DNA from: Casimicrobium huifangae
Lineage (GTDB): Bacteria; Pseudomonadota; Gammaproteobacteria; Burkholderiales; Casimicrobiaceae
Direction of reading: 5' to 3'
Assembly (NCBI RefSeq): GCF_009746125.1
Contig: NZ_CP041352.1
Coordinates: 523,847-587,846 of the forward strand
DNA length: 64,000 nt
Below are positions 14,226 to 56,237 of the stretch, one piece after another. How positions within the stretch are numbered: position 1 is the stretch's first letter; each line of letters starts with the position of its first letter. The position numbers and the translations under genes are program-made. The notes under the pieces are model-generated. The model was not told the DNA's origin, made no database searches, and saw only the letters and a program-made list of their open reading frames with translations.

Positions 14226-14342
14226 AGCTTTGCGGTGAAATGCCCATTCGCTTGGGGCTCAAGCGTATAAATGGCAAGAAATCGACTTTGCATCAATTTG
14301 GCTGCCTAGCCCAATTCCGATGCGGGTTTGAGTAAAAAGTTG
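14226..14342. repeat. Dispersed 116-bp inverted-repeat element, copy A
   Basis: This 117-bp intergenic element has imperfect terminal inverted repeats of about 35 bp. The left arm begins AGCTTTGCGGTGAAATGCCC and carries ATTCGCTTGGGGCT. The right arm, read from the other strand, begins CAACTTTTTACTCAAACCCG and ends in TTGGGCTAGG. The centre contains ATCGACTTTGCATC. It fills the spacer between convergent genes (dehydrogenase and pdxA). Copies B, C and D share length, arms and centre. Confidence 0.8.
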
Positions 14343-14352
14343 ATTAGTCCGA

Positions 14353-15387
14353 TCAGGGCTGATCGGCTGCGTCAATCCGCGCCAGATGCCAGCGCAGCAC
14401 ATGCAGCAGATTCGCCTCGCTGGCGACGCCGTGCCCGGCGATGTCGAACGCGGTGCCGTGATCGACGCTGGAGCGCAGGAACGGCAGGCCGATGGTCACG
14501 TTCACCGCCGCGTCGAGCCCGAGCAGCTTCACCGGGATCAGGCCCTGGTCGTGATACATCGCCAGCACCACGTCGAATTCACCCGTGCGGGCGCGCATGA
14601 ACACGGTGTCCGGCGGCAGCGGATCAGTCACCCGCAGCCCCAGCGCGCGCGCCTGCGCAATCGCCGGCAGCAGCACCCGCGACTCATCGTCGCCCAGCAT
14701 GCCCGCTTCACCGGCATGCGGGTTGATGCCTGCCACTGCGATCAGTGGTGACGCTTTGCCGAGCCAGCGCCCGGCGTCGTGGGTGAGCTGCAATTTGGCG
14801 AGAACCAGTTCTGGCGTCAGTGCCTTGAGGGCATCGGCCAGCGGCAGATGGATCGTCGCCAGCACCACCTGCAGGCGCTCGCTGGCGAACATCATTGCAA
14901 ACTGGTCATCACCGCTGCGCCCGGCAATCCGGGCGAGAATTTCAGTGTGGCCCGGCTCGCTCACCCCCGCCGCGCGCAACGCGAGCTTGCTGATCGGCGC
15001 CGTCGCCATGCCGCAGGAGTGCCCGTCCATGCTCAGTGTCGCTGCGGCCACGATGGCCTGATAAGCGGCGCGTCCGGCGTCCGCACCCACCTTGCCAGCC
15101 TCGGGCAGGGCGCTTAGACAGGGCACCGGATGAATCGCAATCTCGTGCTCCTGCAGATCGTCGGGCAGGGCGTCGCTGTCGCGCAGATCGACCTCACGCA
15201 GCCGGAACCTCGGCGCGTAACGGGTGAGCGCATCACGCATCGGCAGTGGGTCGCCCACCACGACCACACGGCCGCGCAGGATGGCGTCATGCGCCAGCGC
15301 CTTGGCGACAATCTCCGGCCCGATGCCGGCCGGGTCGCCCGGCGTCAGCGCCAGAGGCCTGTCGGCCAGTGCGCGGTCAGACGCCAT
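14353..15387 (-). CDS. pdxA: 4-hydroxythreonine-4-phosphate dehydrogenase
   Basis: This enzyme oxidises 4-phosphohydroxy-L-threonine in the DXP-dependent vitamin B6 pathway, just before the PdxJ condensation. The 344-residue protein has the family start ALTPGDPAGIGPEIVAKAL, the ISKLALRAAGVSEPGHTEILA segment, INPHAGEAGMLGDDE, and the late YHDQGLIPVKLLGLDAAVNVTIGLPFLRSSVDHGTAFDIAG stretch with metal and substrate His/Asp residues. The start overlaps the end of pdxJ by 11 bp, so pdxJ-pdxA form a two-gene operon. Confidence 0.96.
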   Translation of the reverse strand: MASDRALADRPLALTPGDPAGIGPEIVAKALAHDAILRGRVVVVGDPLPMRDALTRYAPRFRLREVDLRDSDALPDDLQEHEIAIHPVPCLSALPEAGKVGADAGRAAYQAIVAAATLSMDGHSCGMATAPISKLALRAAGVSEPGHTEILARIAGRSGDDQFAMMFASERLQVVLATIHLPLADALKALTPELVLAKLQLTHDAGRWLGKASPLIAVAGINPHAGEAGMLGDDESRVLLPAIAQARALGLRVTDPLPPDTVFMRARTGEFDVVLAMYHDQGLIPVKLLGLDAAVNVTIGLPFLRSSVDHGTAFDIAGHGVASEANLLHVLRWHLARIDAADQP

Positions 15388-16144
15388 GACACATGCGGCA
15401 ATACGCCCGCGTGGTTTCCGCGAGCCCCATCATCAGCGCATCGGCGATGAAGGCGTGGCCGATCGACACCTCGTCCGGCGCCACATCACGCAGCAACAGC
15501 GGCAGATTGTGCAGGTTCAGATCATGCCCGGCGTTGACCGCGAGGCCCGCCTCACGCGCCTTGCGCGCAGCATCGGCGAACGGTTGCAGCGCCTCACGCA
15601 CGGTGGCGCTCGCGGCTGTGTTGCTGACCTGCGCGCACGCGTGTGCGTAAGGCTCGGTGTAGAGCTCGATCCGATCCGCGCCAGCAGCACGGGCTGCAAC
15701 TACCGCCGTGACATCGGCGTCCACAAACACGCTCACCCGCATTGCCATCGCCTTGAAGTGCGCGATCAGCGGCTGTACGGCATCCATCTCGGCGCCTGCT
15801 GCAAAACCACGATTGGACGTGGGCACATTCAGCGCGTCGGGCACCAGCGTCACTTGCCGTGGAGCAAGGTTCGCCGCGGCAAGGCTCTCTACAATCTGCA
15901 CCAGATTGTGGTGCGGATTGCCCTCGACGTTGAACTCACGGTCGGGGTACTCGCGCACCAGCGCGGCGATTGGCTGCATGTCACTGGCGCGGATGTGCCG
16001 CTCGTCAGGGCGCGGATGCACGGTGATGCCATCAGCACCGGCGTCGAGCACGATGCGCGCGCAGGCGACCAGATCGGGCAAGCCGTTGTCGCGGCTGTTG
16101 CGCAGCAGCGCGATGCGATTGATGTTGGCAGAGAAATGAGTCAC
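15377..16144 (-). CDS. pdxJ: Pyridoxine 5'-phosphate synthase
   Basis: This enzyme condenses 1-deoxyxylulose-5-phosphate with 3-amino-2-oxopropyl phosphate to pyridoxine 5'-phosphate. The 255-residue TIM-barrel protein has family landmarks NINRIALLRNSR, GADGITVHPRPDERHI, NVEGNPH, VTLVPD, RIELYTEPYA and VNAGHDLNLHNL. The frame is open to 16192, but the GTG at 16144-16142 gives the normal MTHFSANINRIALL start. It also avoids a 36-bp overlap with the divergent gene at 16157. No strong Shine-Dalgarno sequence is visible. Confidence 0.95.
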   Translation of the reverse strand: MTHFSANINRIALLRNSRDNGLPDLVACARIVLDAGADGITVHPRPDERHIRASDMQPIAALVREYPDREFNVEGNPHHNLVQIVESLAAANLAPRQVTLVPDALNVPTSNRGFAAGAEMDAVQPLIAHFKAMAMRVSVFVDADVTAVVAARAAGADRIELYTEPYAHACAQVSNTAASATVREALQPFADAARKAREAGLAVNAGHDLNLHNLPLLLRDVAPDEVSIGHAFIADALMMGLAETTRAYCRMCHGV

Positions 16145-16156
16145 GGCAGGTAAACC

Positions 16157-16891
16157 ATGCAAACGGTTGCGAACAAGACTGACATTGTGCAAGAAATGCA
16201 GGCGCGAGGCTTTTGCCTGATCGCACCGGCGCAGCTCAGCGCCGTTACCGGCATCACGCCCGCCGCGCTTGACCCGCTGCGCCCGAGCTGGGAAGCGCTG
16301 CCGCGTGACGCATACCTGCGCGATGGTGGGCGCTATCGCTCACGGCGGCACGCGTCGTATGTGCAGACCATCGCCGCCGGCACGCTAGGCGACGTGCCGC
16401 ACCGGGCGCACTGGCAGCCGGTGGACTACAACGCGCTGCATGGCGGCATCGAACGCTGGTTTGAGCCGGTCACGCCCGAAGTATCTACCGACACCACCTG
16501 GCGCACCTTCATCCTGCGTGTCGGCGAACTTTGCGCCAGCACCCTCAGCGCGCCGCCGGATCGGTGGTACATCGAAGCACACCAGTTCCGCATCGATACG
16601 GCTGAGGGTATCGGTCGCCCCACGCCCGAAGGCGCGCACCGTGATGGCGTTGATTTCGTTGCTGTGGTGCTGGTCAATCGCCGTGGCGTCAAGGGTGGCG
16701 AGTCGCGCGTGTTTGACGCGCACGGCCCGAGTGGCGTGCGCTTCACGCTGACCGAGCCGTGGTCCGTACTGCTGCTCGACGACGCCCGCGTCATCCACGA
16801 GACCACGCCTATCCAGCCCGATGGTGAGCCGGGCGTGCGCGACACGCTGGTGATCACTTATCGGCGCAGCGGCTTTCAGGATCCGGTGTAG
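16157..16891 (+). CDS. 2-oxoglutarate/Fe(II) dioxygenase family protein (2OG-Fe_Oxy_2)
   Basis: This 244-residue protein matches the 2OG-Fe(II) oxygenase family that includes BsmA and free amino-acid hydroxylases. The likely metal triad is H-x-D in GAHRDGVDFV (about residues 160-162) and the distal His in ARVIHETTPI (about 215). An Arg in RDTLVITYRR fits 2-oxoglutarate binding. Upstream RYRSRRHASY is also typical. The substrate is unknown; some relatives hydroxylate free L-isoleucine or related amino acids. It is divergent from pdxJ with a 12-bp gap. Its 3' end overlaps the convergent GNAT gene by 38 bp. Confidence 0.87.
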   Translation: MQTVANKTDIVQEMQARGFCLIAPAQLSAVTGITPAALDPLRPSWEALPRDAYLRDGGRYRSRRHASYVQTIAAGTLGDVPHRAHWQPVDYNALHGGIERWFEPVTPEVSTDTTWRTFILRVGELCASTLSAPPDRWYIEAHQFRIDTAEGIGRPTPEGAHRDGVDFVAVVLVNRRGVKGGESRVFDAHGPSGVRFTLTEPWSVLLLDDARVIHETTPIQPDGEPGVRDTLVITYRRSGFQDPV

Positions 16892-17450
16892 TTAGGCTTG
16901 CGTGGCGCCAGTCTCGCGCGAGCAAGCCATACAGCGCCGAATCAGAAACCTCGTCGCCAACAATCCAGCGCTCGCGCAACAAGCCTTCGCGGATGAAGCC
17001 AAGCTTCTCCAGGCTGCGGGCCGAGCCGGCGTTGCGCGGATCAATATCCGCTTCAAGCCTGTGCAAATCCAGTTCGCCAAAAGCAAAGCCAATCAGCGCG
17101 CTGACTGCCTCAAACATGTAGCCCTTGCGCCAGTGCGGGCGGGCGATGCCATAACCCACTTCGCCACGACGGCATTGTGCGTTGAGATTGAAGAGTGAGC
17201 AGGTGCCGATCAACCCATCACCATCGCGCAGAAAGATGCCCAGCCGCACGTGTTCACCGGCCGCCAGTTCACGCAGATCACGCTCAATTAACTGCGTTGC
17301 CTGATCCATCGATGTCCACGGTGCCGAGCTCCAGTAGCGCATGAAATCGGGGTCGGAATAGATGTCGTAAAGTGGTTCGGCGTCGGTGGCGGCAAGCGGC
17401 CGCAACCGCAATCTTGGCGTCAGCAGCGCAACATCAGAAAATGGCTTCAC
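16854..17450 (-). CDS. GNAT N-acetyltransferase (RimJ/RimL-like)
   Basis: This acetyltransferase of about 198 residues begins TPRLRLRPLAATDAEPLYDIYSD. It has the acetyl-CoA loop region RRGEVGYGIARPHWRKGYMFEAVSALIGFAF and the late RNAGSARSLEKLGFIREGLLRE block of the RimJ/RimL group. The likely target is a protein N-terminus or small amine; it cannot be specified. The start is uncertain: GTG at 17450-17448 is used, and TTG at 17474 is the in-frame alternative. It lies 34 bp downstream of the VOC gene. Confidence 0.87.
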   Translation of the reverse strand: MKPFSDVALLTPRLRLRPLAATDAEPLYDIYSDPDFMRYWSSAPWTSMDQATQLIERDLRELAAGEHVRLGIFLRDGDGLIGTCSLFNLNAQCRRGEVGYGIARPHWRKGYMFEAVSALIGFAFGELDLHRLEADIDPRNAGSARSLEKLGFIREGLLRERWIVGDEVSDSALYGLLARDWRHASLTTPDPESRCADK

Positions 17451-17484
17451 AGAGTTTGCCGTAACGAAGTGCAAACCGGCAACG

Positions 17485-17871
17485 TTACTGTCCGGCCGGC
17501 GGCTGCCACAACTCCACCTTGTTACCTTCGGGGTCCATCACCCAGCCAAACTTGCCGTATTCCGAGTCGTCAGTCTTGTCGAGCACGTTGCAGCCTTCGG
17601 CGCGCAGCGCCGCGAGCAGTGCATCAAGATCATCAACGCGGTAATTGATCATGAACGGCGCCTTGCTTGGCGCGAAGTGATCGCCACCAGCCTTGCCAAT
17701 TGACCACACTGTCGTGCCCTTCATTGCATTGCCGTCGCCGTCTGCCCAGGTGAATGCCGTGCCGCCCCAGCTTTGCACGTCAATGCCCAGGTGAGCCTTG
17801 TACCAGGCATGCATCGCTGCCGGGTCCTGCGCCTGAAAGAAGATTCCACCGATGCCGGTAACGCGCTTCAT
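17485..17871 (-). CDS. VOC (glyoxalase/bleomycin-resistance fold) family protein
   Basis: This 128-residue VOC protein reads VTGIGGIFFQAQDPAAMHAWYKAHLGI at the start and FGWVMDPEGNKVELWQPPAGQ at the end. It is a close relative of the 122-residue VOC protein at 10195-10563. A purine-rich AGGGGATCACA precedes the ATG. Substrate unknown. It is probably cotranscribed with the GNAT gene. Confidence 0.88.
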   Translation of the reverse strand: MKRVTGIGGIFFQAQDPAAMHAWYKAHLGIDVQSWGGTAFTWADGDGNAMKGTTVWSIGKAGGDHFAPSKAPFMINYRVDDLDALLAALRAEGCNVLDKTDDSEYGKFGWVMDPEGNKVELWQPPAGQ

Positions 17872-17943
17872 TGTGATCCCCTGCTGGATTGATGAGTGCC
17901 TAGCGTAGCGCGTTTGGGAGCGAGTAACGCTCCGGTCAGCGCA

Positions 17944-18750
17944 CTAGCGCGGACAGGTTCTGTTGGCCCACTCGTCGATGGAGTTAAACGTCGGCTCGGG
18001 TGCATTCGACCGTGCCACTCCATACTGACCAGATGTCACATAGACATTTCCGCTCACTGCGCCCGATGCCGTGTCGACAGCGTAAGTCTCCTTGACGTAA
18101 AAGCTGTCAAGCAGAGCCTCTGTGGCCGAAGCACGTTTGCGAAAGCAGAGCAGCTCAAGCTCATTGTCCAGAACCGGATTCTTCGGCATACGCCGTGCGT
18201 AGGCCAACTCAATCGGTTTATTGCCTCGCACCGCCCCTTTGCTGACTTGCCAAAAACTGCCGGAATCGCGCTGCAGTGCTTTTGCGCAAGCGGCGAGGAA
18301 ACGCAGTTCGTGTCGCTCGCCGGTCGATTGGGCAGAAGGGCAGGCCTGCGAGCAGGCGCCCTTGTCACCGGCAAGGCATTCGTCGGTCAGATGTGACTTC
18401 ACATTCCGCGCAACGGGTTCGAGTTTCTGGGTCAGTGACTTGTAGTAAGCGCGCTCCATCTTGTCCCATTCGGCACATGCGCTTGCGTTACCAGCGTCGC
18501 ATTCCTTCTTTTTCTCGCGAAGGGCTGGGGGCTTCGGGTTCTCCTCGGCGATCTGATGAAACTTGTCCATCGCCTGTCGCGATTTCGGCGCGGGCGTGGC
18601 TGGCGGCGCAGGCGCCACCGCAGCACCCGCGCACGGTTGATCTGAATAGGTCACCTTGCCGTCGGCCGACTGGCAGCGATGCACCTGAGCGTTAGCGACA
18701 CCGCCCAGCATCACACCTGCCAGGAAGAGCACACGCAAGCCAATGGCCAT
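17944..18750 (-). CDS. Secreted DUF4124-domain protein
   Basis: This 268-residue protein has a signal peptide (about residues 1-20, ending GGVANAQ) and then the DUF4124 pattern VHRCQSADGKVTYSDQPC. An Ala/Pro linker follows, then a Cys-rich region (ECDAGNASACAEW, DECLAGDKGACSQACPSA) with the spacing of Sel1-like or disulfide-bonded repeats, and a C-terminal domain. The frame extends to 18945, but the ATG at 18750 places the signal peptide at the N-terminus. DUF4124 has no known biochemical role. Probably periplasmic. Confidence 0.78.
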   Translation of the reverse strand: MAIGLRVLFLAGVMLGGVANAQVHRCQSADGKVTYSDQPCAGAAVAPAPPATPAPKSRQAMDKFHQIAEENPKPPALREKKKECDAGNASACAEWDKMERAYYKSLTQKLEPVARNVKSHLTDECLAGDKGACSQACPSAQSTGERHELRFLAACAKALQRDSGSFWQVSKGAVRGNKPIELAYARRMPKNPVLDNELELLCFRKRASATEALLDSFYVKETYAVDTASGAVSGNVYVTSGQYGVARSNAPEPTFNSIDEWANRTCPR

Positions 18751-19159
18751 GCGGTCCAGCACGTGTGTAGCGTCAAGTGCGTGGCAGGACGGGGTGGGCC
18801 GCGATTGGTGATCGCGCCGGGTCTGTTCAGTACTCATTCGCAGAAGAGGATTCCAGTCAATCGCTTGCGGCACAGGAAGCAACCGGTGCCGCACTTGTGT
18901 TGTGGTTGGGACGTCTTGGGAATGATTCCGCACACTGGTGTGCATTCACCCGCAGCCGCGTTTCGACACCAGCGTGATCGCCGATGTCAGGCGTGGAAAG
19001 TATAGAGTCCGCACTTCACGTGGAGCGCGCCTTGTTTGCGCCATCGCTTGATAAGGATCGAGTTTCGGACTATTCCCGGCAGCGAATCCTGGGCAACGTT
19101 CCGGTGCTGCTTCGTAAGCGCACCTCGAAGGTCACCGAGCAGCCAATGACGGCCCGACG
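18751..19159. other. 409-bp spacer without a supported gene
   Basis: The spacer lies upstream of the DUF4124 gene and downstream of the peptidase gene, both on the minus strand. It should hold the DUF4124 promoter. Reading frames here are short, look unlike known proteins and have no good start sites. I saw no terminator, repeat-family copy or RNA gene. Confidence 0.5.
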
Positions 19160-20701
19160 CTATCGGCACCCCGCCACATACGCCGCCACTCCCGAGGCTC
19201 CATTGAGCAACGTACCCAGCGGCCCAACACCGCTAGCCAGCGCGCTGCTGGTTACGCCGCGCATGGCACGCTGAACGATGGTGCCGTCGTGCAGCGTGAG
19301 CGTGTTGCCGCTGCGGTCGAGGTCATAGTCCTTGCTGGCTATGTAGCTCTCGATCGTTGCCGGTTGCGTGCGCGCCGCGCCTGCCTGGTTGATGCCGGCA
19401 ATCAGCGCATTACCGCGCATGCCGAACAGGTAACGCAGCAGCAACACACCATCGCGATCCGGCTCAACGGTGCCGCTGCCATCAATGTCGAGATCACAAA
19501 TCTTGCTTGACGGATGCCCTGCCGGCAACGTGTGCATCGCCCAGCTGGTCGGGCTGGAGCCGTTGTAGGCGCAGGCCGTGATGCCGTCGCGCGTCAGGTT
19601 CATGCGTGTGCAGTTGCTGTCGTAGTCAGCAGTCACTGTGGTGGCATTGATGCGCCAGCCCGAGAACTCGCTCTGGTCAATCGCCACTTGCGCGCCGCTG
19701 GCGAGCAACGTCACGTGCGTGTGTGGCCCGGTCGAGCTGCCGCCCTGGCAGAGCGCCTGCGCCTGATTGTCGGCATAGTCTGCCAGCCGCTGGCCGGTGA
19801 CTACCGTGGCACCGTTGCTCACCGCCACATTGGACAGGTGGTAATAGTTGGTGGCCCAGCCGTTCGCATTGGTCACGCGAACATTGCACGAAGAGTACAC
19901 AGTGACCGTACCGCCATGCGCCGCATGCACAGGCGCATTGGTTGTGCTTGTGGTCCACTGCGGCCAGCCTCGCGAGAAATCGATGGACGATTGCGGCGAC
20001 GCACAGGGCGTGGGGTTGCAACTGCCGGATGTGGTGTGCACGCCGTTGAAGCTCCAGCCGGATTGCCCGGCCAGCCAGGGCAGGCGCAGGAAGAGCGCGG
20101 GCGCTGCCTTTTCTGATTCGGCCTCAACGGCAACCTGCGGTGCGCCGTAGCGCGTGCGCCAGCGCTCGCTCAGTTTGCGCGCATCGCCATCGCCCGCGAG
20201 AAACGTCGCCGCCACCGCCCGTGCGCCAAAACTCTGCCCTGCCAGCGCCAGCACCCGTGCGCGGGTGCGCGCGATACCGCCGTCCTGCTGGCTACGGCCG
20301 GTCTCGAACATATGCGAAACAGCGCCGACGAACTGGTCCAGCCGTTCGCCAGCCGCAGTGCTGTCAAGCCCATCCAGATTGCCCAGCAAATCGCTCTCGT
20401 CCGCCAGCAAGGCCAGCAGCCGCGGGTTCACGCTGTAGCGGCCAGCACGATCAATCACCCGGTCAACCCAAGGCGCCAGCTTTGCCGATTGCGCCACGAT
20501 GCGCCGCGCCTCCGCCACGTCCAGCACGCGCGTGTCCCACACCAGCTCGGCGTCGGTGAGGGCTGCAGCTGCATCGACTGGCGCGGCAACTGCCGGTGCA
20601 GCGTACAGCGCGTTTGCCAGCACACCGACGACAAGCGGCGCGAGATATCGACGACGTTGCCGCTGGATTGGTCTCATCACCGAAAAAAGTGTGGTTGTCA
20701 T
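19160..20701 (-). CDS. Secreted LasA-like M23 metallopeptidase with dockerin-like C-terminus
   Basis: This exported protein of about 513 residues has a signal peptide (RRRYLAPLVVGVLANALYAA, cleavage near AVAA). An N-terminal prodomain-like helical region (about 40-200) precedes a LasA/M23 domain (about 205-380). Candidate zinc ligands there are Asp in SSIDFSRGWP, His in VHAAHGG and His-x-His in GPHTHVTLL. C-terminal are two EF-hand/dockerin-like segments, DLDIDGSGTVEPDRDGVLLL and DYDLDRSGNTLTLHDGTIV, plus a terminal Cys. Likely a staphylolytic or elastolytic-type endopeptidase acting on peptidoglycan cross-bridges. Start: ATG at 20701; ATG at 20677 is possible. Confidence 0.85.
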   Translation of the reverse strand: MTTTLFSVMRPIQRQRRRYLAPLVVGVLANALYAAPAVAAPVDAAAALTDAELVWDTRVLDVAEARRIVAQSAKLAPWVDRVIDRAGRYSVNPRLLALLADESDLLGNLDGLDSTAAGERLDQFVGAVSHMFETGRSQQDGGIARTRARVLALAGQSFGARAVAATFLAGDGDARKLSERWRTRYGAPQVAVEAESEKAAPALFLRLPWLAGQSGWSFNGVHTTSGSCNPTPCASPQSSIDFSRGWPQWTTSTTNAPVHAAHGGTVTVYSSCNVRVTNANGWATNYYHLSNVAVSNGATVVTGQRLADYADNQAQALCQGGSSTGPHTHVTLLASGAQVAIDQSEFSGWRINATTVTADYDSNCTRMNLTRDGITACAYNGSSPTSWAMHTLPAGHPSSKICDLDIDGSGTVEPDRDGVLLLRYLFGMRGNALIAGINQAGAARTQPATIESYIASKDYDLDRSGNTLTLHDGTIVQRAMRGVTSSALASGVGPLGTLLNGASGVAAYVAGCR

Positions 20702-20871
20702 CGCCTGGCTCTTTGCAAACACGCGCCCGTCGTGCAAGCTGGGCAGGATAGCAAACGAGAGCGGCGAATCACGACAGACAACCTGTGCGAGAACGGCCGC
20801 CCGACGTAGCCGCGTCGCTGCGCGGCCGGATCGCGGCGATTTTCGGCTGCAAACGACGACTCACCAGAAAG

Positions 20872-21971: not shown

Positions 21972-22085
21972 TCATGAATTGAGAGGCGCTGCAACTTCGC
22001 AGAGGCAGTGAATTTGTTAGTCCAGCGCGTCTACCCTTCTATGCAAATCCATTGATCGAAAGTGGTATCACTTATTGCCACCGTT

Positions 22086-23157: not shown

Positions 23158-23159
23158 CA

Positions 23160-23219: not shown

Positions 23220-24914
23220 CTACGCCGCCTTCTTCTCCATGTCGCGCAGCTCGCGGCGCAGGATCTTGCCTACTGGTGTCTTGGGCAAATCGGCGCGGAA
23301 GACGATGTACTTCGGCTTTTTGTACCCAGCGAGGTTGGCTTCGCAGTAGTCGCGCACCTGCTGCTCGGTGAGGGCCGGGTCTTTCTTGACGATGAACACC
23401 TTGACCGCTTCGCCGGATTTTTCGTCGGGCACGCCGATCACTGCGCACTCGAGCACGCCGGGGCAACTGGCGACCACATCCTCTACCTCGTTCGGGTAGA
23501 CGTTGAAGCCGGATACCAGCACCATGTCCTTCTTGCGGTCCACAATCTTCACGTAGCCGCGCTCGTCCATCACGCCGATGTCGCCGGTCTTGAAGAAGCC
23601 GTCCGGTGCGAACACCTTGGCGGTTTCGTCGGGGCGCTGCCAGTAGCCCGCCATCACCTGCGGGCCGCGGATGCAGATTTCGCCTGGCTCGCCTTGCTTG
23701 ACGTCCTTGTTGTCGTCATCGCGGATGGCGATCTCGGTGCTCGGCAGCGGCAGGCCGATCGTGCCGGAGTAGGCGTCAGTGTCGGTCGGGTTGCAGGTGG
23801 CGGAGGGGGACGTCTCCGAGAGGCCGTAGCCCTCGACGATGGGGCAGCCGGTGGCCGCCAGCCATTTGTCGGCCACCGCCTTCTGCACCGCCATACCGCC
23901 GCCGTTGGCCACGCGCATGTCGCTCACGTCCAGCTCCTTGAACGAGGGCTCGTTGAGCAGCGCGTTATAGAGCGTGTTGACGGCCGGGAACATGTGGATC
24001 TTGAAGCCCTTCAGCGCCTTGATGGTGCCGGGGAAGTCGCGCGCGTTCGGGATCAGGATCACCAGCCCGCCGGTGCGCACCGCCAGCAGGAAGCAGACCG
24101 TGAAGGCGAAGATGTGATACAGCGGCAGCGCGCAGACGGTGGTGAGCTGCTCCGGCGGCTTCGGCTTTTTCGGGTTGGTCAGCGCCGGCTGCATCCACGC
24201 CTCGGACTGCAGCACGTTGGCCACGATGTTGCGGTGGAGCAGGGTGGCGCCCTTCGATACGCCGGTGGTGCCGCCGGTGTATTGCAGCACGGCCGGGTCT
24301 TCGAATTTCGCCTTCGACGGGGACAGCGCCAGCGGTTTGCCGCGGGCAATGGCGTCGTTGAACTTCACGGCCGTGGGCAGCGAGAACGGGGGCACCAGCT
24401 TTTTCTTCTTGCGCACCACGTAGTTGACCAGCGAGCCCTTGATGAAGCCCAGCATGTCGCCCATCGCGGCAAGGATGACGTGCTTCACCGGTGTTTTGTC
24501 GAGCACCTGCTGCAGCGTGGCGCCAAAGTTCTCCAGAATCACGATGGCTTTGGCGCCGGAGTCCTTCAACTGGTGCTCCAGCTCGCGCGGCGTGTAGAGC
24601 GGGTTGACGTTCACCACCACAAAGCCGGCGCGCAGGATGGCTGCCACCGAGACCGGGTACTGGATCACGTTGGGCATCATGCAGGCGACGCGGTCGCCCG
24701 GCTGCAGGCCCACGCTTTGCAGGTAGGCGCCGAGCGCGCGGGAGAGTTCGTCCACCTCGCCATAGGTGACGTTTTTGCCCATGCTGTTGAAGGCGGCGCG
24801 ATGGGCGTACTTCTGGAAGCTCTCCTCCAGCAGTTGCACGATCGAGCTGTACTGGTCGTACTTGATGGTGGCGGGTACGCCGGCCGGATAGTTGTTCAGC
24901 CAGGGTTTGTCCAC
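23220..24914 (-). CDS. fadD: Long-chain-fatty-acid--CoA ligase (FadD-type)
   Basis: This enzyme activates fatty acids to acyl-CoA through an acyl-adenylate. The 564-residue protein has the AMP-binding P-loop-like motif YTGGTTGVSKGA (about residues 213-224), the VEGYGLSETSP motif, GEICIRGPQVMAGYWQRPDET, DGFFKTGDIGVMDERGYV, and the C-terminal KKPKYIVFRADLPKTPVGKILRRELR with the adenylation Lys. The GTG start follows GAGGAGGAA with good spacing. It is monocistronic with its own terminator, and divergent from the ABC-F gene across repeat copy B. Confidence 0.94.
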   Translation of the reverse strand: MDKPWLNNYPAGVPATIKYDQYSSIVQLLEESFQKYAHRAAFNSMGKNVTYGEVDELSRALGAYLQSVGLQPGDRVACMMPNVIQYPVSVAAILRAGFVVVNVNPLYTPRELEHQLKDSGAKAIVILENFGATLQQVLDKTPVKHVILAAMGDMLGFIKGSLVNYVVRKKKKLVPPFSLPTAVKFNDAIARGKPLALSPSKAKFEDPAVLQYTGGTTGVSKGATLLHRNIVANVLQSEAWMQPALTNPKKPKPPEQLTTVCALPLYHIFAFTVCFLLAVRTGGLVILIPNARDFPGTIKALKGFKIHMFPAVNTLYNALLNEPSFKELDVSDMRVANGGGMAVQKAVADKWLAATGCPIVEGYGLSETSPSATCNPTDTDAYSGTIGLPLPSTEIAIRDDDNKDVKQGEPGEICIRGPQVMAGYWQRPDETAKVFAPDGFFKTGDIGVMDERGYVKIVDRKKDMVLVSGFNVYPNEVEDVVASCPGVLECAVIGVPDEKSGEAVKVFIVKKDPALTEQQVRDYCEANLAGYKKPKYIVFRADLPKTPVGKILRRELRDMEKKAA

Positions 24915-25089
24915 GGGTTCCTCCTCGTTGAAACAGTGCGACGGCGCGTCGGTGCGCGGCGTCGGTGGTCAGTGATTGCCGTTGCGCGCAATGTGAAGCA
25001 GCGCAACGCTTTGCAGGGCATGATAGCAGCGCAAATTTTGGCTGCGGTGCAGCAATTTGCGCGTTTGAACTGGCGCGCGACAGTCGATC

Positions 25090-25204
25090 ATCTTTTGGCT
25101 GAAAGCCTGATTGGATATGGGCAAAAATCGTAATTCGGCTAATAGTCGACTTTTTGCTAATTGCGGTGGCAAACCCAATGCAGACGCCGTTTGAGAAAAA
25201 AGAT
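25090..25204. repeat. Dispersed 116-bp inverted-repeat element, copy B
   Basis: This is a 115-bp copy. The left arm runs ATCTTTTGGCTGAAAGCCTG and then GATATGGGCA. The right arm, other strand, runs ATCTTTTTTCTCAAACGGCG and then CATTGGGTTTGCC. The centre is AGTCGACTTTTTGC. It lies between divergent fadD and the ABC-F gene, ending within 30 bp of the ABC-F start, so it may carry or influence promoter sequence. Confidence 0.78.
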
Positions 25205-25230
25205 GAATGCCTGCCGACTACACTTTGCGG

Positions 25231-45910: not shown

Positions 45911-45945
45911 ACGCCGGCAGGCCGAGGACGGATGTCTTTCAAGTC

Positions 45946-46060
45946 AGCTTTTTGCTGAAATCCCCATTCAATAAGGGCTACCGACGCGAATTGACGATTA
46001 TCGACTTTCGCTCATTTGGTGTGCTGAGCCCATTTTGAACGGGGCTTTCCGCGTAAAGCC
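45946..46060. repeat. Dispersed 116-bp inverted-repeat element, copy C
   Basis: This is a 115-bp copy with the clearest arms. The left arm runs AGCTTTTTGCTGAAATCCCC and then ATTCAATAAGGGCTA. The right arm, other strand, runs GGCTTTACGCGGAAAGCCCC and then GTTCAAAATGGGCTC. The centre is ATCGACTTTCGCTC. It lies between the Lrp-type gene and livJ, before a separate terminator. Confidence 0.82.
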
Positions 46061-46122
46061 GTAGGGTGCGACTATCGCCCCTCAGCACGCCTTAAAGCGC
46101 AGGCCGGCGACGTGAGGTCAAA

Positions 46123-46165: not shown

Positions 46166-47458
46166 TTACTTCTTCTTTTCTTCCTTGGCCGGAGCAGCAG
46201 CGGCCGGGGCCGGAGCGGCTGCGGGAGCAGGGGCTGCCGGGGCAGCAGCGGCCGGAGCAGCTTCTTTCGGGCCACCGACGATTTCAACGGTTTCCCACTT
46301 GCCGCCTTTGACCTGGAACACGGTCACAGCGCCGTCCTTGATGTCGCCCTTGTCGTCAAACGCGATCTTGCCGGTCACGCCATCCATCGAGGTTGCCTTG
46401 ATGGCGTCGATGATCTTGGCCGGATCGGTACCAGCCTTCTGGATGGCGGCGATCAGCACGTTGGTCGCGTCGTAGGTGAACGGAGCGTAAACCTGAACGT
46501 CAGCGTTGAACTTGGCCTTGAACTTGTCGTAGAAGGCGGCGCCCTGCGGCATCTTCTCTTTCGGCAGACCAGCGGTCGTTGCGTAGGAGCCTTCAGCAGC
46601 GTCGCCACCGAGCTTGATCAGCTCGGCGGATTGCGCGCCGTCACCCGAGATGAACTTGGCCTTGATGCCAAGGGCTTTCATCTGCTTGAGCATCGGGCCC
46701 GCTTGTGCGTCCATGCCGCCGAACATGATCACGTCCGGGTTCTTGGCCTTGACCTTGGTCAGCACGCCCTTGAAGTCCTGCTCTTTTTCGTTGGCAAGCG
46801 CTTCACGGATCACAACGGCGCCACCGGCGGCCTTGACAGCCTTTTCGGTTTCGTCAGCCAGACCTACGCCGTAGGCGGTCTTGTCGTCGATGATCGCGAT
46901 CTTCTTGCCGAGCTTGGCAGCAGCGTAGTTACCAATCGCCGTGCCTTGCGCCACGTCGTTGGCCACCATGCGGAACACGCCCTTGAAGCCCTGGTTGGTC
47001 AGCTTCGGGTTGGTGGCCGAGGGGGAAATCTGTGCCACACCAGCCTGGTTGTAGATCGCCGATGCCGGGATCGAGGTGCCGGAGTTCAGGTGGCCGACCA
47101 CGCCGACAACCTTGGCGTCCATCAGCTTCTGGGCTACTTGCGTGGCTTGCTTGCCGTCAGCAGCGTCGTCTTCGGTCAGCAGTTCGAACTTGGCCTTCTT
47201 GCCATCGACCATGATGCCCTTGGCATTGGCTTCTTCAACGGCCAGCTTGGCGCCGTTTTCGTTGTCCTTGCCGAGGTGGGCGATCTGGCCGGACGTCGGG
47301 CCGACGTGACCGATCTTGATGACGACTTCCTGCGCTGCTGCAGGTGCCGGAGCAGCTTTGGCTTCTGCTTTCGGCTCTTCTTTCTTGCCGCAAGCGGCCA
47401 AACCCGCTGCTACGGCGATTGCAATCGCTGCGAGAGCGAATTTATTGGACTGTTTCAT
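46166..47458 (-). CDS. livJ: Branched-chain amino acid ABC transporter substrate-binding lipoprotein
   Basis: This periplasmic binding protein of the Leu/Ile/Val type has 430 residues. It has a lipoprotein signal (VAAGLAACGKK), an Ala/Pro/Glu linker, then IKIGHVGPTSGQIAHLGKDNENGAKLAVEEANAKG, VVGHLNSGTSIPAS and PFTYDATNVLIAAI of the type I periplasmic fold. It ends in an unusual Ala/Pro tail and KEEKKK. ATG at 47458 follows CGGAGGA and puts the signal at the N-terminus; the frame to 47518 is rejected. It should feed livHMGF about 4 kb away. Confidence 0.93.
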   Translation of the reverse strand: MKQSNKFALAAIAIAVAAGLAACGKKEEPKAEAKAAPAPAAAQEVVIKIGHVGPTSGQIAHLGKDNENGAKLAVEEANAKGIMVDGKKAKFELLTEDDAADGKQATQVAQKLMDAKVVGVVGHLNSGTSIPASAIYNQAGVAQISPSATNPKLTNQGFKGVFRMVANDVAQGTAIGNYAAAKLGKKIAIIDDKTAYGVGLADETEKAVKAAGGAVVIREALANEKEQDFKGVLTKVKAKNPDVIMFGGMDAQAGPMLKQMKALGIKAKFISGDGAQSAELIKLGGDAAEGSYATTAGLPKEKMPQGAAFYDKFKAKFNADVQVYAPFTYDATNVLIAAIQKAGTDPAKIIDAIKATSMDGVTGKIAFDDKGDIKDGAVTVFQVKGGKWETVEIVGGPKEAAPAAAAPAAPAPAAAPAPAAAAPAKEEKKK

Positions 47459-48246: not shown

Positions 48247-48259
48247 TACGACGACACTC

Positions 48260-49402: not shown

Positions 49403-49467
49403 GGCGTGCCGGCACGCTCTCGCGTGAACCGCCGCCAGCGGCGCTGTCGCAGCCCGCCGACTGATCG

Positions 49468-50238: not shown

Positions 50239-50248
50239 GACGTCTCCT

Positions 50249-51238
50249 TCAATTCTTGAAAAGCTGGTGTTCTCTGGCTTCGGCAAGTGTAAGCACCGGC
50301 GTCACGCAGCAATCGATGCGGTCAAAGAATTCGGTCCACGCCGCGAGCGACTGCGTGGCAAAGCGATCTGCCAGCTCTTTGCGCACGCGCAGCGCGACGA
50401 TGCCCTCGCTGCAACCCAGCGCCTTGAGGTGCGGCATCTGCAATGCATCACACAGCAGATGCCAGAACTTTTCCTCCAGCGCCCCGACAGCGAGAAAGCG
50501 CCCGTCCCCGGTGGGATAGACGCCGTAGCAGGGCCAGCCGCCGGTCAGCCAGTCCTCACCGCGCGGGCGAGCGGCACCAAGTGCGAGGCCGTGCTCGGCG
50601 ATGATATTGAGCCCGGCGACCTCGTGCGTCATCGAGACATCGACAAACGAGCACTGTCCGCTCAATTTGGCCTGCACCAGTGCCGCGCAGATACGGGCGG
50701 CAGCAGCCAGCGCGCCGCCGGCGAGATCGGCAATCTGCCAGTTGGAAATTGCCGGCGGCCGGCCACGCTCACCGATCTGGTCGAGCACGCCACTCATGGC
50801 GAGGTAGTTGATGTCGTGCCCAGCCCGATGCGCCCACGGGCTGTCACTGCCGTAGCCGGTGATCGCGCAATAGACCAGCGCCGCGTTGTGTTCGCGCAGC
50901 GCCTCGTAGCCGAGCCCGAGCCGGGTCATCACGCCGGGCCGGAAGCCTTCAACCAGCGCATCGCTTTCCGTCACCAGCGAAAGTAACCGGGCACGGCCGG
51001 CTTCTGATTTGACGTCCAGTCGCTCGACCTGCTTGCCACGATTGACGATGCTGTACAGCGGCGCAACCTGGTCGGCAGGCGCATCGGCCGGCAGGCCAAG
51101 GCGATTGGCGTAGTCGCCTTCGGGCGGTTCGATCTTGATGACCTCGGCGCCCCAGTCGGCCAGCATGCGGGTGCAGGCGGGGCCGGGCAGCAGGCGGGTC
51201 AGGTCGAGGATGCGGATGCCGGTGAGCGGTTGTGTCAT
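50249..51238 (-). CDS. CaiB/BaiF family CoA-transferase (alpha-methylacyl-CoA racemase-like)
   Basis: This 329-residue protein starts [41 protein letters not shown], the family signature. It also has [50 protein letters not shown] and [13 protein letters not shown]. It probably racemises or transfers CoA on branched acyl groups. It ends [10 protein letters not shown], about 30 residues earlier than typical racemase-like members, so the C-terminal segment is lost or replaced. Paired with the downstream SDR gene. Confidence 0.87.
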
Positions 51239-51304
51239 GCCAGCATTATCCCCGCGCCATCAGCGCGCCGCGGTTCTGCGGTCCGACCAGCAACGACCAG
51301 CAAC

Positions 51305-52444
51305 TCAGGCGGCGATACGCAAAATCTGTTTCACGCGCTGTGCGGTTGCCAGCGCATCGTCAAGCGTTGCGCCAGTGCAGGTGACATGCCCCATCTTGCG
51401 GGCACGCCGCGCCTCCGCCTTCCCGTAGAGGTGCAGATGGGCGCCGGGCAACGCCAGCACCTCCGGCCACGCTGGCTGCATGGGCGTAGCCGCATCAAAC
51501 CACACATCGCCGAGCAGATTGACCATCACCGCTGGCTGCACCAGCGAGGTATCGCCCAGCGGTGCCTCGGCCAGAATGCGGGCCTGCTGCGCGAACTGCG
51601 AGGTGACGCAGGCCTCGATGGTGTAGTGCCCGCTGTTGTGCGGGCGGGGCGCGATTTCGTTCAGCAGCAAGCCGTCGGCAGTGACGAACATCTCGACGCA
51701 GAGCACGCCCACATAGTCGACAGCTGCAACCAGCCGGCGGGCGAGATCCTGCGCCTCCGCAAGCCTTGTACCGTCGATGCGCGCCGGCACGATGGTGAGG
51801 TCGAGAATGCCGCCGACGTGCTGGTTCTCCTGCACCGGCCACACGGCGGTGGCGCCATCAGCGCTGCGCGCTACCAGCACCGAAATTTCGCGCTCGAACG
51901 GGATCAGCGCTTCCAGCACGCAGGGCGCCTGCTTCATGCTCATCCAGGCAAGCAGCGCCTGTTCAACCGAGGTTACCCGCTGCTGGCCCTTGCCGTCATA
52001 GCCGAGCGTTGCCGTTTTCAGGATGCCCGGGAACAACGTTGGCGATGCCGCACGCAGGTCCTCGGCGCGCTCGATCACTGCAAACGGCCCAACCGGCAAG
52101 CCGTGATCGCTGAAAAAGCGCTTCTCGCGGCGGCGATCCTGCGCAATGCGCACCGCCTCCGCTGCAGGGCGTGTGGGTACAACTGCTGCGAGCGCTTCCA
52201 GCGTTGCCGCCGGGACGTTCTCGAATTCGGTGGTGACCGCTGCCACGCGCTTTCCGAACGCAGCCACTGCCTGCATGTCATCGTAGGCCGCAACCACGAT
52301 GTCGTCTGCCGCTTGCGCTGCCGGGCCGCTGGCGTCGGGATCAAGCACCAGCACCTTGTAGCCCATCGCCTGCGCGGCATGCACAAACATGCGGCCAAGT
52401 TGGCCGCCACCAAGGCAGCCGAGCCAGGAGCCGGGGGGCAACAT
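51305..52444 (-). CDS. purK: 5-(carboxyamino)imidazole ribonucleotide synthase
   Basis: This ATP-grasp enzyme carboxylates AIR to N5-CAIR in purine synthesis. The 379-residue protein has the N-terminal GCLGGGQLGRMF, VTTEFENVPA, PGILKTATLGYDGKGQQ, LEALIPFEREISVLVAR and LLNEIAPRPHNSGHYTIEAC. It follows purE by 8 bp, as in the usual purEK operon. Confidence 0.96.
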   Translation of the reverse strand: MLPPGSWLGCLGGGQLGRMFVHAAQAMGYKVLVLDPDASGPAAQAADDIVVAAYDDMQAVAAFGKRVAAVTTEFENVPAATLEALAAVVPTRPAAEAVRIAQDRRREKRFFSDHGLPVGPFAVIERAEDLRAASPTLFPGILKTATLGYDGKGQQRVTSVEQALLAWMSMKQAPCVLEALIPFEREISVLVARSADGATAVWPVQENQHVGGILDLTIVPARIDGTRLAEAQDLARRLVAAVDYVGVLCVEMFVTADGLLLNEIAPRPHNSGHYTIEACVTSQFAQQARILAEAPLGDTSLVQPAVMVNLLGDVWFDAATPMQPAWPEVLALPGAHLHLYGKAEARRARKMGHVTCTGATLDDALATAQRVKQILRIAA

Positions 52445-52452
52445 CGTGGCGC

Positions 52453-52974
52453 TTACTTGTCGGTCATGACCGGCGGCACCAGCATCGCGCGGGCGCCTGC
52501 CGTCTGCTCGTCGCGGAACGAAAGCAACTGCTGTGCGAGCGATTTGTTGGCGATGGCCAGCATGGCCACGGCGAACAGGCCTGCGTTCGCCGCACCAGCC
52601 TCGCCGATGGCGAAGGTGGCGACCGGAACGCCCTTGGGCATCTGCACGATCGACAGGAGCGAATCCTCGCCACGCAGGTATTTCGAAGGCACCGGCACGC
52701 CGAGCACCGGCACCGTAGTCTTGGCCGCCAGCATGCCGGGCAGGTGAGCGGCACCGCCGGCGCCGGCGATGATCACGCGGATACCGCGCTCGGCGGCGTT
52801 CTCGGCGTAGTCGAACATGTCGTCCGGCGTGCGGTGCGCTGAGACCACCTTGGCCTCGTAGTTCACACCAAAGCGGTCGAGCATCTCCACCGCGTGTTTC
52901 ATGATGTCCCAGTCGGATGATGAACCCATCACCACGCCAACTGCCGCCCCAACACCGTTAGCCACGTTTTGCAT
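52453..52974 (-). CDS. purE: N5-carboxyaminoimidazole ribonucleotide mutase
   Basis: This enzyme converts N5-CAIR to CAIR. The 173-residue protein has [80 protein letters not shown], all PurE landmarks. ATG at 52974 gives a normal N-terminus; the frame to 53016 is rejected. Divergent from slt across about 105 bp. Confidence 0.96.
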
Positions 52975-53079
52975 GCCGGCGATTGTAGCGATGCGCTGTT
53001 CGCAACAGCGCCGCATCGCCAGCCCGTGGTGACGACACGACAGCGCCGCATTGGCAAGGACTTGACGGAAAATATCGGC

Positions 53080-55047
53080 ATGACGTTACCGCTTTACCCA
53101 CGCCTCCGCGCAACAGCAGCGAGGGCAGCGACAGCACGCAGCGGCATCGCGCTCCTGCTCGCAGTCATCATCAGTCACCCGGCGCTCGCCAGCGACGCAG
53201 CAGTCAAGGACGCCGCCGAGGGCTATCGCTTTGGCGACGGCAAACGTGTCAATTCCGCGTTGGCGCAAGCCCGTGGCCACCTGCTTGAACACTACGTCGA
53301 ATACTGGGCGCTCCGGTTGCGGATCGACACCGCCAGTGCCGCCGAAATCGAACGCTTCCTGAAAGTGTCGGCCGGTAGCGCAGTGGGCGACCGCATGCGC
53401 ACCGACTGGCTCAAGCAGCTCGGCAGGACGGGCGACTGGGTGCGCTTCGAGCAGGTCGGGCAGGGCTTTGATACCGACGACAGCGAGATCGCCTGCTTTC
53501 GCGCCACGCTGGCTGTGCGCAACGGCAGCAAAGAAGTGCAGCCGGTGCCGCGTGGCATCTGGGAAGACCGCCTGACCGAAGCTTGCGCTGATGCCTTCGC
53601 CTCGCTGGTGCGGGCGAAGCAATTGACTGCGGAGGACGCGCTCTGGCGGTTCCGCACCACGGCGGACGGCGGCACGCTGCTGGCGGCGTCCCGCGTGGCT
53701 GATGTGCTGGGCGATGGCGTGGCGCCGCAACCCGATGCCTTGCAACGCGCGCACAGTAACCCGGAGGCGCTGCTGCGTGGTGGTGCGTTCGCTTCACGCG
53801 CCGCGCGCGAGGCTGCGCTCTACGCGCTAACGAGGCTGGCCCGTAGCGATGTGGTCAAGGCGCGCGCCGCCTGGGCGCCGATCCGCAGCAGGTTCAGCGA
53901 CGACGAGCAACGCTACGCCGCCGGGCAGCTTGCCTACGCCAGTGCACGCCGGCTCGACACTGCCGAGGCCATGGAATGGGCCAAACGGGCGCAGGACGGC
54001 GAGCAGTTCACCCGCCTGGGTGACTGGCAGGCGGCGTGGATCGCCCGCGCTGCTCTTCGTGCGGGCGCGTGGAAAGACGTGCAGCGGGCGATTGCGGCGA
54101 TGAGTCCCGCCGCCAATGGCGGGCAGGCGGACCCGGCGTGGCGCTACTGGAAGGCGCGTGCACTGGTGGCACTGGGCGAGCCGCTGACGGCGCAACCGAT
54201 CTACGTCGATCTGGCGAAAGAGCCCAGCTACTACGGTCTGCTGGCTGCGGAGGAAATCAACGCCGCGCTGCCCACGGTGGCCACCCTCAACGGTGGCGCG
54301 CTGAAACTGAGCGAGGTTGACTTCAAGCGCTTCGACCAGTCACCCGCTGCGAAACGGGTGCTCAAGCTCTCCGAGCTCGGGCTCCGCGCCGACGCGGCGC
54401 GCGAGTGGTACAGCGTGGTGAAGGATTACAACGACGCCGATTCGCTGGCCGCCGCTGAATGGATGCGTCGCAAGGGCATCTGGGATCGCTCGATCAATAC
54501 GGCAGAGCGCACCAAGGCGCAGCATGATTTCAGCCTGCGCTTCCAGATGCCGTACAAGGACGAGATCAAGAAGGCCGCTACCCAGGCGGCGCTCGACCAC
54601 GCGCTGGTGTTTGGTCTGATCCGGCAGGAGTCCCGCTTCTGGGCCGAGGCGGTGTCATCGGCGGGCGCGCTGGGCTTGATGCAGGTGATGCCGGCCACCG
54701 GCAAGTGGATCGCCGGACAATTGAAAGCCAGCGAATATCGCCCGAGTCACCTGGCCGACGTGGCGGTAAACACCGGCTTTGGCGCCTTCTATTTGCGCAC
54801 CGTGCTCGACCAGATGGGGGGGTCGGAGCCGATGGCCGCGGCGTCCTACAACGCCGGCCCCGGCCGCGCCCGGGCGTGGCGGGCCGATGTACCGCTCGAA
54901 GGCGCGATCTACGCCGAATCCATCCCGTTCAATGAAACCCGCGACTACGTGAAAAAGGTGCTCGCCAACGCCGTCTGGTACGCGCACCTGCAGGGCTCGG
55001 GCAACACCTCGCTGAAATCGCGATTGGGGATAATCCCTGCCAGATAG
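53080..55047 (+). CDS. slt: Soluble lytic murein transglycosylase
   Basis: This periplasmic enzyme cleaves peptidoglycan between MurNAc and GlcNAc. The 655-residue protein has a signal peptide (about 1-31, ending HPALA), a long alpha-superhelical U/L domain (about 40-480), and a C-terminal SLT domain. The SLT domain has [31 protein letters not shown], with the catalytic Glu in QES, and [21 protein letters not shown] at 53080 is chosen over upstream codons because the signal peptide then begins at the N-terminus. Confidence 0.94.
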
Positions 55048-55111
55048 GGGCAATTGGCGCCTCGCGGCGTCTCTGTCGGCGTACGAAACGCCTCGCCTCG
55101 TCGCCGCGATC

Positions 55112-55167
55112 GCTTTCGTCATTCGTCACTCCTCATTCGTCATTGGTTATTGGTCATTCGTCCTGCG
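55112..55167. repeat. Degenerate 7-bp tandem repeat
   Basis: Eight consecutive heptamers of the TCATTCG type occupy the spacer before the epimerase gene. They include TCATTCG (three copies), TCACTCC, TCATTGG, TTATTGG and TCCTGCG, with a worn copy GCTTTCG first. The array ends 12 bp before the ATG at 55180. Short heptamer arrays of this kind are known mostly from cyanobacteria and a few other bacteria. Confidence 0.75.
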
Positions 55168-55179
55168 AAGCAACTCATC

Positions 55180-56106
55180 ATGAACATCCTCATCCTCGGC
55201 GGCAGCGGTTTCGTTGGCCTCGCCATTTGCAGCAAACTGGTGGCCGCCGGCCACAGTGTTACCGTCCCCACCCGTCTGCGTGACCACGCGCGTAACCTGT
55301 TTCCGTTGCCCAGCGTGACGGTGGTCGAGGCTGATGTCTACGACGCCGGCGCACTGGTGCGACTGGCCTCCGGCATGGACGCGGTGATCAATCTGGTCGG
55401 CGTGCTGAACGGCGATTTCGAGCGCGCGCATGTCACGCTCACGCAGAACGCCATCGCCGCCTGCAAGGCTGCTGACGTCTCGCGCTACCTGCACATGAGC
55501 GCGCTCGGCGCGTCAGAAAACGGCCCCAGCCAGTACCAGCAGACCAAGGCCAGGGCTGAGGCGGCGGTGCGTGCTAGCGGGCTGGACTACACGATCTTCG
55601 CGCCCTCGGTGATCTTCGGTCGCGGGGATTCCTTCCTGAACAAGTTCGCCGCGATGGTCAAGCTGTTGCCGCCGTTCATGCCGATGGCACTGCCTGGCGC
55701 ATCGGCGCGCTTCCAGCCGGTGTGGGTGGACGATGTGGCGCGTGCCTTTGTAGCGGCGCTGACCACGCGCGCCACCGTCGGCCAGCGCTACGAGCTGGCC
55801 GGCCCCAAGGCCTACTCGTTGCGCGAACTGGTGCGCTACGTGATGACGCTCGCCGACGATCGTCACGCCATCATCGGCCTGCCGGGTTTCGTGTCATCGC
55901 TGCTCGGCGCCGTGCTCGGCCATCTGCCCGGCAAGGTGCTGACCACGGACAACGTGCGCTCAATGTCGGTGGACAACGTGACGGACGCTGCCTGGCCCGC
56001 GTTCGCTGGCAGCCGCGCCGCGCTGGAGGACATCGCGCCGACTTACCTGGGCCGCGTCGCGTCGTTTGACGAATTCGCGCTGGCACGGGAAAAGGCCGGG
56101 CACTGA
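55180..56106 (+). CDS. NAD-dependent epimerase-like protein of the NDUFA9 type
   Basis: This 308-residue protein is an atypical short-chain dehydrogenase starting NILILGGSGFVGLAICSKL (NAD-binding Gly motif). It contains INLVGVLNG, YLHMSALGASENGPSQYQQTKARAEAAVR (Y-x3-K shifted as in atypical SDRs) and TIFAPSVIFGRGDSFLNKFA. This pattern matches bacterial relatives of complex I subunit NDUFA9. The physiological role is unknown. ATG at 55180 is fixed by the Rossmann motif; frames upstream run through the heptamer repeats. Possibly cotranscribed with slt. Confidence 0.88.
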   Translation: MNILILGGSGFVGLAICSKLVAAGHSVTVPTRLRDHARNLFPLPSVTVVEADVYDAGALVRLASGMDAVINLVGVLNGDFERAHVTLTQNAIAACKAADVSRYLHMSALGASENGPSQYQQTKARAEAAVRASGLDYTIFAPSVIFGRGDSFLNKFAAMVKLLPPFMPMALPGASARFQPVWVDDVARAFVAALTTRATVGQRYELAGPKAYSLRELVRYVMTLADDRHAIIGLPGFVSSLLGAVLGHLPGKVLTTDNVRSMSVDNVTDAAWPAFAGSRAALEDIAPTYLGRVASFDEFALAREKAGH

Positions 56107-56121
56107 AGCGCCTGCCCTATT

Positions 56122-56237
56122 GGCTTTTGGTCAAAACGACCATTCGACATGGGCTCCAACGTCGTTTTCGCTAGAAGTCAATATCCAACCATTTCCAGCC
56201 TTGAGACCAGATTGAATGGGCGTTTCCGAGAAAAGTT
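56122..56237. repeat. Dispersed 116-bp inverted-repeat element, copy D
   Basis: This is a 116-bp copy. The left arm runs GGCTTTTGGTCAAAACGACC and then ATTCGACATGGGCTCC. The right arm, other strand, runs AACTTTTCTCGGAAACGCCC and then ATTCAATCTGGTCTC. The centre is AGAAGTCAATATCC, more diverged than in the other copies. It ends 9 bp before the esterase ATG at 56247, so it would lie in the leader or promoter of that gene. Confidence 0.78.

Follow-up and report, generated by a model that had tools for sequence, protein, structure and literature searches.

The stretch of DNA analyzed here, which we call the window, comprises 64,000 nucleotides of the Casimicrobium huifangae chromosome (NZ_CP041352.1, positions 523,847 to 587,846), and it carries four copies of a palindromic intergenic element of about 122 bp that is the subject of this report. 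The first copy (14223–14344, + strand, 122 bp, dyad TCGA at 14282–14285) lies between the convergent genes of a 2-hydroxyacid dehydrogenase (13240–14211, +) and PdxA (14353–15387, −). The second (25087–25207, +, 121 bp, dyad TCGA at 25146–25149) separates a divergent pair, a gene at 23220–24914 (−) and an ABC-transporter-type ATPase gene (+) that starts at 25207 or 25231. The third (45943–46063, +, 121 bp, dyad TCGA at 46001–46004) is again between convergent genes, an Lrp/AsnC-type regulator gene (+) that runs to 45910 and a − strand gene that ends at 46166. The fourth (56119–56240, +, 122 bp, dyad TCAA at 56178–56181) has tandem neighbors, an epimerase-like gene (+, to 56106) and an alpha/beta hydrolase gene (+, from 56247), and stands immediately before the start codon of the latter.

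A preliminary description of these copies, made from the window, gave the same gene contexts, and all four copies are real and mutually alignable. Its positions were roughly right, with true limits 2–3 bp wider and lengths of 121–122 bp, and TCGACTTT is indeed present in three of the four, the remaining copy having TCAATATC. The "unconserved-to-conserved centre" that it reported has to be given up, as the center is the dyad of one unbroken 122-bp palindromic consensus.

A dispersed and evenly spaced family

An initial DNA search across the complete genome, a betaproteobacterial chromosome of 4,465,898 bp, found further copies beyond the four. A covariance model made from nine copies gave 893 candidates, both strands counted (many sites match on both, since the element is palindromic); 150 of these were scored and 743 left unscored, and all 150 match the full length of the model. 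Sixty evenly spaced 20-kb stretches and the window, 1.264 Mb in all, provided 100 distinct sites once four weak places (E of at least 1) had been omitted, and a profile hidden Markov model (HMM) was built from 95 of them, five weak or short ones being excluded. Over 1,617,604 bp this profile detects 126 full copies and 17 partial ones, and one contiguous stretch of 557,604 bp accounts for 46, full and partial; by proportion, the genome is estimated to hold about 350 full copies, or about 395 with the partial ones. Such abundance is far above chance, and the family is undescribed in the literature that we searched, chiefly open-access.

The logo of 45 ungapped 122-bp copies has abrupt edges and flanks that are nearly free of signal. 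The consensus reads CAGCTTTT, AAA, CCCATT, GGGCT, a patch of A/T only and then AAAGTCGACTTT at the exact center, after which the mirror image follows, so that the consensus is one continuous palindrome in which position i mirrors position 123-i, with a T run at its 5′ edge and an A run at its 3′ edge. Length is nearly constant (122 bp in 66 of the full copies, 121 in 44, 120 in 15 and 123 in one; 125 of 126 thus measure 120–122 bp), and the information content of the motif is 85 bits. The alternation of AT-rich and GC-rich blocks has a period close to 9.5 bp (symmetric shuffles: P = 0.01), the same best period being found in the relatives G006 and G015, and the AT profile matches its own mirror with r = 0.96. 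Each arm has nested sub-dyads at about its positions 13 and 27.5, which reach at best about the 99.9th percentile of the symmetric shuffle. Four of the 17 partial copies (L066:18779-18840, L107:9846-9907, L055:3743-3803 and L073:3617-3679) start from the TCGA dyad (position 60 of the model) and extend to one edge; these recurring half-elements may be one-armed sites.

Genes were called with a simple, purpose-written gene finder based on codon usage (1417 genes, 86% coding), and none of the 126 full copies lies within a gene. Convergent genes flank 37 copies, divergent genes 20 and tandem genes 65, and four lie at stretch ends; the convergent sites are enriched about two-fold over the 18–20 expected (P = 2e-5 against the gene-pair share, P = 1e-4 against intergenic bases), and the median distance is 24 bp to a 3′ end and 86 bp to a 5′ end. 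The copies are single rather than clustered. Along the contiguous 557.6 kb the mean gap is 12.2 kb, with only three of 45 gaps below 4 kb and a coefficient of variation (CV) of 0.51, against about 0.95 by chance, an evenness matched by none of 20,000 uniform placements and none of 5,000 placements confined to the 348 actual intergenic slots. Counts per 20 kb agree, with a variance-to-mean ratio of 0.45 (as low a value occurred in none of 10,000 Poisson sets), and six of the 60 sample stretches have no copy. In the relative G011, 54 sites in 632 kb have a CV of 0.64 against 0.96 (P = 0.001), a result that is not independent because the positions are shared. On inspection there is no obvious density gradient from the origin, which by GC skew lies near the record ends, to the terminus near 2.35 Mb.

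Symmetry without covariation

The preliminary description saw selection on structure in arms that differ between copies and still pair. Arms pair because each of them matches the same consensus, and the pairing is what independent arms would give. Nine copies have no excess of covariation over shuffles, and 95 copies have 2938 Watson-Crick cells where column frequencies predict 2934 (500 shuffles: mean 2931, standard deviation 27; 40% reach the observed value). The same holds in G006 (24 copies, 663 against 666.5 expected) and in G015 (20 copies, 627 against 629). Mutual information exceeds the 99.99% null level in 21 column pairs, 20 of them no more than four positions apart and none of them a mirror pair; as far as it can be read from sequence, this dependence between near neighbors resembles that seen in readout of DNA shape. 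Symmetry of the arms without covariation argues for selection on a symmetric double-stranded site and not on a hairpin.

These results bear directly on the idea that the element acts as RNA, either as an mRNA-stabilizing hairpin, one of three functions suggested in the preliminary description, or as a bidirectional terminator at gene 3′ ends. Its nearness to gene ends (median 24 bp) and its enrichment between convergent genes would suit such a role, and the 46-kb copy in the window folds, as DNA, at z = -4.2. The three other window copies barely outfold their shuffles, however (z = -1.4, -1.7 and -1.8 for the first, second and fourth), the order of the T run and the A run is the reverse of that in an intrinsic terminator, only 122 of 1336 gene pairs, about one in eleven, have a copy, and Rfam at gathering scores finds a single tRNA in the window and no match to the elements. 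The hairpin is ruled out by the missing covariation, and we regard an RNA element of any kind as very improbable.

One copy should be mentioned separately. The left arm of L053:16997-17118 contains a perfect GCCCCGCCGGAGCGGGGC hairpin that is nearly unchanged in G011 while the rest of the element has diverged, and this element has possibly been reused as a terminator.

Conservation in place and descent of the copies

The model R2, trained on this genome, has matches in 16 of 17 genomes of the genus, the host included (E 1e-5), and in none of 47 genomes from six other genera of the family at the same threshold, where stricter filters may miss weak matches. None of 13 genomes from 13 other genera, one of them shared with the set of 47, has a match at E 1e-3, and so, by the genome sequences searched, the family is restricted to one genus. 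An exact-pattern scan of GTDB genomes found it in three metagenome-assembled genomes only, the host's own records being possibly absent there. Among the more distant members of the genus, with a best PdxA match of 50–53% (G006, 51%), the length, the dyad and the main blocks are kept and the letters have drifted; for G002 this is seen in six copies and for G008 in only four. In G015, 16 of 21 elements (L253–L272 and L214) are 120 bp long, as extrapolated from the profile matches, two below the commonest length in the host, which looks like a coherent shift. G016 (2.6 Mb) has no match and G008 (2.5 Mb) has few, 25 with both strands counted; the family may disappear in the course of genome reduction.

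G011 is the nearest relative by PdxA (88%); its collinear DNA shares about 83% identity with the window, and identity elsewhere is 80–88%. All four window elements have an element at the orthologous place in G011, with predicted edges mostly within about 10 bases. A first comparison of 20 sites assigned a G011 element to 13, doubtfully in two cases (L054:10650, with a 92-base flank, and L053:9987, with 27 aligned bases); the other seven are three without a usable flank, L052:14680, L051:16542, L053:4925 and L082:19511, the last a weak copy with one flank mapped and no element in G011. Mapping by two flanks gave a partner for 20 of 20 sites of the host and 21 of 21 sites of G011. In 80 collinear intergenic regions of 60–500 bp, partial copies counted, the element is absent from both species in 63 and present in both in 17, without a single discordant region.

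Within 20 orthologous pairs, identity rises with the information content of the column, from 254/723 (35%) below 0.3 bit through 425/782 (54%) and 276/370 (75%) in the intermediate classes to 453/516 (88%) above 1.2 bit; between paralogs the same four classes give 30, 43, 61 and 89%. Ungapped noncoding flanks are 39% identical (201/513). The free columns thus evolve like spacer DNA, and the motif columns are constrained. Four-fold degenerate sites, at 67.5% identity (41% expected from composition), are well above both free columns and flanks, possibly as a result of codon selection. In gapped alignments the 17 intergenic regions with an element are 70.8% alike and the 63 without one 78.0%. We had suspected that free columns turn over faster than neutral, on the strength of their 35% against 67.5% at four-fold sites and 69% in 40-base flanks (gapped alignments, 11 pairs), and dropped the idea because the ungapped noncoding flanks are about equally diverged.

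At the G011 locus orthologous to L053:4925 (L194:16129-16313) the element dyad is occupied by another kind of repeat, roughly 185 bp long and bounded by long inverted ends that are GC-rich. This repeat splits the element into halves and has the central GTCG(A/G)CTT on both sides, as if it were a target-duplicating insertion.

A second function suggested in the preliminary description was that of a non-autonomous mobile element. The corresponding alternative is a fossil family of miniature inverted-repeat transposable elements (MITEs), non-autonomous transposons that spread formerly and are now inert, their even spacing perhaps due to transposition immunity. The element as a whole is an imperfect palindrome and so has the inverted repeats of a MITE; these repeats are long, the copies are scattered, sharp-edged, intergenic and evenly spaced, and an 85-bit motif hardly originated independently hundreds of times. 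The spread of pairwise identity among the 95 copies (mean 0.516) is also slightly wider than in column shuffles (standard deviation 0.046 against 0.040), which may mean neighbor dependence or weak residual kinship. Against this, no target-site duplication is found around the 126 copies at 2–10 bp and offsets from -4 to +4 (best z 2.4 among 81 combinations; 0–10 of 126 copies have perfect flanking repeats at the best offsets). There are no clear subfamilies, and the 95 copies include none that is young or near-identical, the most similar pair reaching 68% identity, where shuffles give 66.5%; pairwise identity over the 37 columns of lowest information is 0.298, the random level, so that the free positions are saturated. 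The 80 collinear regions contain neither empty nor extra sites, the motif columns are constrained beside free columns that evolve like noncoding flanks, and in a dead MITE both the motif and the exact length would decay. MITE as a current description is contradicted by the tests of target-site duplication, young copies and presence or absence, and the fossil family is in our judgment improbable; an origin as a MITE with later domestication is conceivable.

Two other routes of spread were considered. Replacement of arms, or gene conversion, was hinted at by the arm of L053:16997, in which 20 of 21 weak columns are kept; it is not general in the 20 pairs, and there are no near-identical copies among the 95. 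As for carriage by phages, the exact pattern GGGCT-N19-AAGTCGACTT-N19-AGCCC has no match in IMG/VR.

Possible binding proteins and comparison with known sites

Symmetry without covariation, together with neutral free columns next to fixed ones, points to recognition by a protein, the third of the functions first suggested and the one that the data support. With the constant length, the AT/GC blocks and the neighbor-dependent A/T tracts, it suggests a two-fold symmetric complex that reads about 120 bp by shape, and even spacing, placement at 3′ ends and conserved positions suggest a role on the scale of the chromosome. Of the findings that the preliminary description had expected of a genuine family, plentiful further copies and sharp boundaries were thus obtained, and covariation was not. 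We consider it probable that the element is a fixed chromosomal site, maintained by the host, that is wrapped by a two-fold symmetric protein complex and has a topological role. In such a scheme a large complex would contact or wrap about 120 bp of double-stranded DNA centered on the TCGA dyad; some 350–395 sites, most of them shortly beyond the 3′ end of a gene and in many cases within a convergent pair, would partition the chromosome at intervals of about 12 kb; and the sites would probably anchor or reset DNA topology, by absorbing positive supercoils driven by transcription or by acting as topological barriers. Persistence of the architecture in G006, where the best PdxA match is only 51% identical, supports the proposal.

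DNA gyrase is the best single candidate for the binding protein, though by analogy and with the chances rather against it. Its motif is described in PMC6379681 and PMC12324340 as about 130 bp long, symmetric about the cleavage dyad and AT/GC-phased, and the enzyme as active downstream of transcription units, and it is this footprint and site of action that make it a candidate. In sequence terms the element has the corresponding length and phasing (122 bp, r 0.96, period 9.5 bp), and the GyrA frame of the host has six C-terminal repeats. Of the central preferences listed in PMC12324340, -2A/+6T is found in 73/95 and 79/95 copies, with the dyad placed by our own mapping.

Several observations weigh against a topological site, and in particular against gyrase. 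No binding protein was identified, and candidates other than gyrase were not sought. Decay is seen in some orthologs in G011, where the strong L052:14680 is matched by a barely detectable element (E 0.0096), L051:16542 by a partial one and L053:4925 by a split one. The 85-bit motif far exceeds what a findable site needs, which makes past dispersal a likely origin. The other two gyrase preferences are not found (-4G/+8C in 17/95 and 14/95, +1G/+4C in 0/95 and 0/95), so that one of three is present. The known gyrase sites compared were the Mu strong site and the pBR322-990 region as it occurs in pSC101, equal numbering being assumed, with the pSC101 par site unplaced, and neither of the two compared is singled out by the element profile: the AT/GC profile is weakly positive at the Mu site (z 1.4–1.6 at the expected dyad, at most 2.2 one base off) and about 0 at the pBR322-990 region, and the full profile HMM has no match at the Mu cut site. 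Gyrase is, moreover, near-universal, and the family is restricted to a genus.

That restriction suits a genus-specific nucleoid or segregation protein other than gyrase, such as an Lrp-like octamer, a bacterial counterpart of SegB or a novel architectural protein, as the complex at the proposed topological site. The nested sub-dyads of the arms are such as a dimer array would leave, no origin-to-terminus gradient is obvious, and the cross-tests with gyrase are weak or negative; yet no candidate was found, none having been sought, and the sub-dyads do not rise beyond about the 99.9th percentile of the symmetric shuffle. We take such a protein as a serious possibility, short of an expectation. 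Somewhat more tentative is the idea that this genus has a chromosome-wide landmark system in which hundreds of fixed, wrapped, two-fold symmetric 122-bp sites, one about every 12 kb, would dock gyrase or a dedicated architectural complex and so set the boundaries or the supercoil balance of topological domains.

In the defining features that we tested, the family is not REP, BIME, MITE or terminator. By analogy, the element may act like a strong gyrase site or a BIME-2. The strong gyrase sites and Topo-Seq motif of Escherichia coli, as described in PMC6379681, are close to it in length, at about 130 bp to its 122, and share with it two-fold symmetry (in their case about a cut site), AT/GC phasing at about the helical turn and a position downstream of transcription units; the E. 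coli motif is degenerate (PMC6379681), in contrast to the hundreds of copies with 85 bits of common sequence found here. BIME-2 is bound by gyrase in E. coli (PMC6379681 and PMC12306157), and REPs are mostly hairpins of 20–50 nt (PMC12306157). REP and BIME-2 sequences are likewise dispersed, intergenic, palindromic and candidate anchors of topology. The element, unlike REP and BIME, measures 120–122 bp, bears no sign of hairpin selection, and is single, evenly spaced and conserved in position.

ERIC is an enterobacterial imperfect palindrome of 127 bp. It occurs in hundreds of copies in some species, at positions that vary between strains (PMC10969869), and by description, not by sequence, it resembles the element in length, palindromicity, intergenic position and copy number; the strain-variable positions set it apart from the element, whose positions agree between two species in 80 of 80 regions.

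Dispersed sites that organize chromosomes, such as the matS, parS and archaeal SegB sites, are also palindromic and read by dimers, but are 13–23 bp long and are clustered in one region or irregularly placed. They have in common with the element that they are chromosomal palindromic sites for a dimeric protein, whereas the element has 122 bp and is evenly spaced wherever sampled.

Fixed boundaries are generally absent from descriptions of the topological domains of bacteria, which measure about 10 kb. If the proposed topological site is real, the topological units of a bacterial chromosome would be written in its sequence, at a domain size usually thought stochastic, and domain structure could be tested directly by deleting or moving sites. 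There would also be hundreds of natural sites of high information content on which the reading of DNA shape by a large complex, gyrase for example, could be studied. More generally, inverted repeats can be mistaken for hairpins or MITEs.

Two further dispersed repeats have matches in G011. One (L101:9769-10126 and 10693-11009) belongs to a second inverted-repeat family with many partial matches in that genome, and the other (L096:12025-12095), of about 70 bp, has both-strand matches in many G011 contigs and is another palindromic family.

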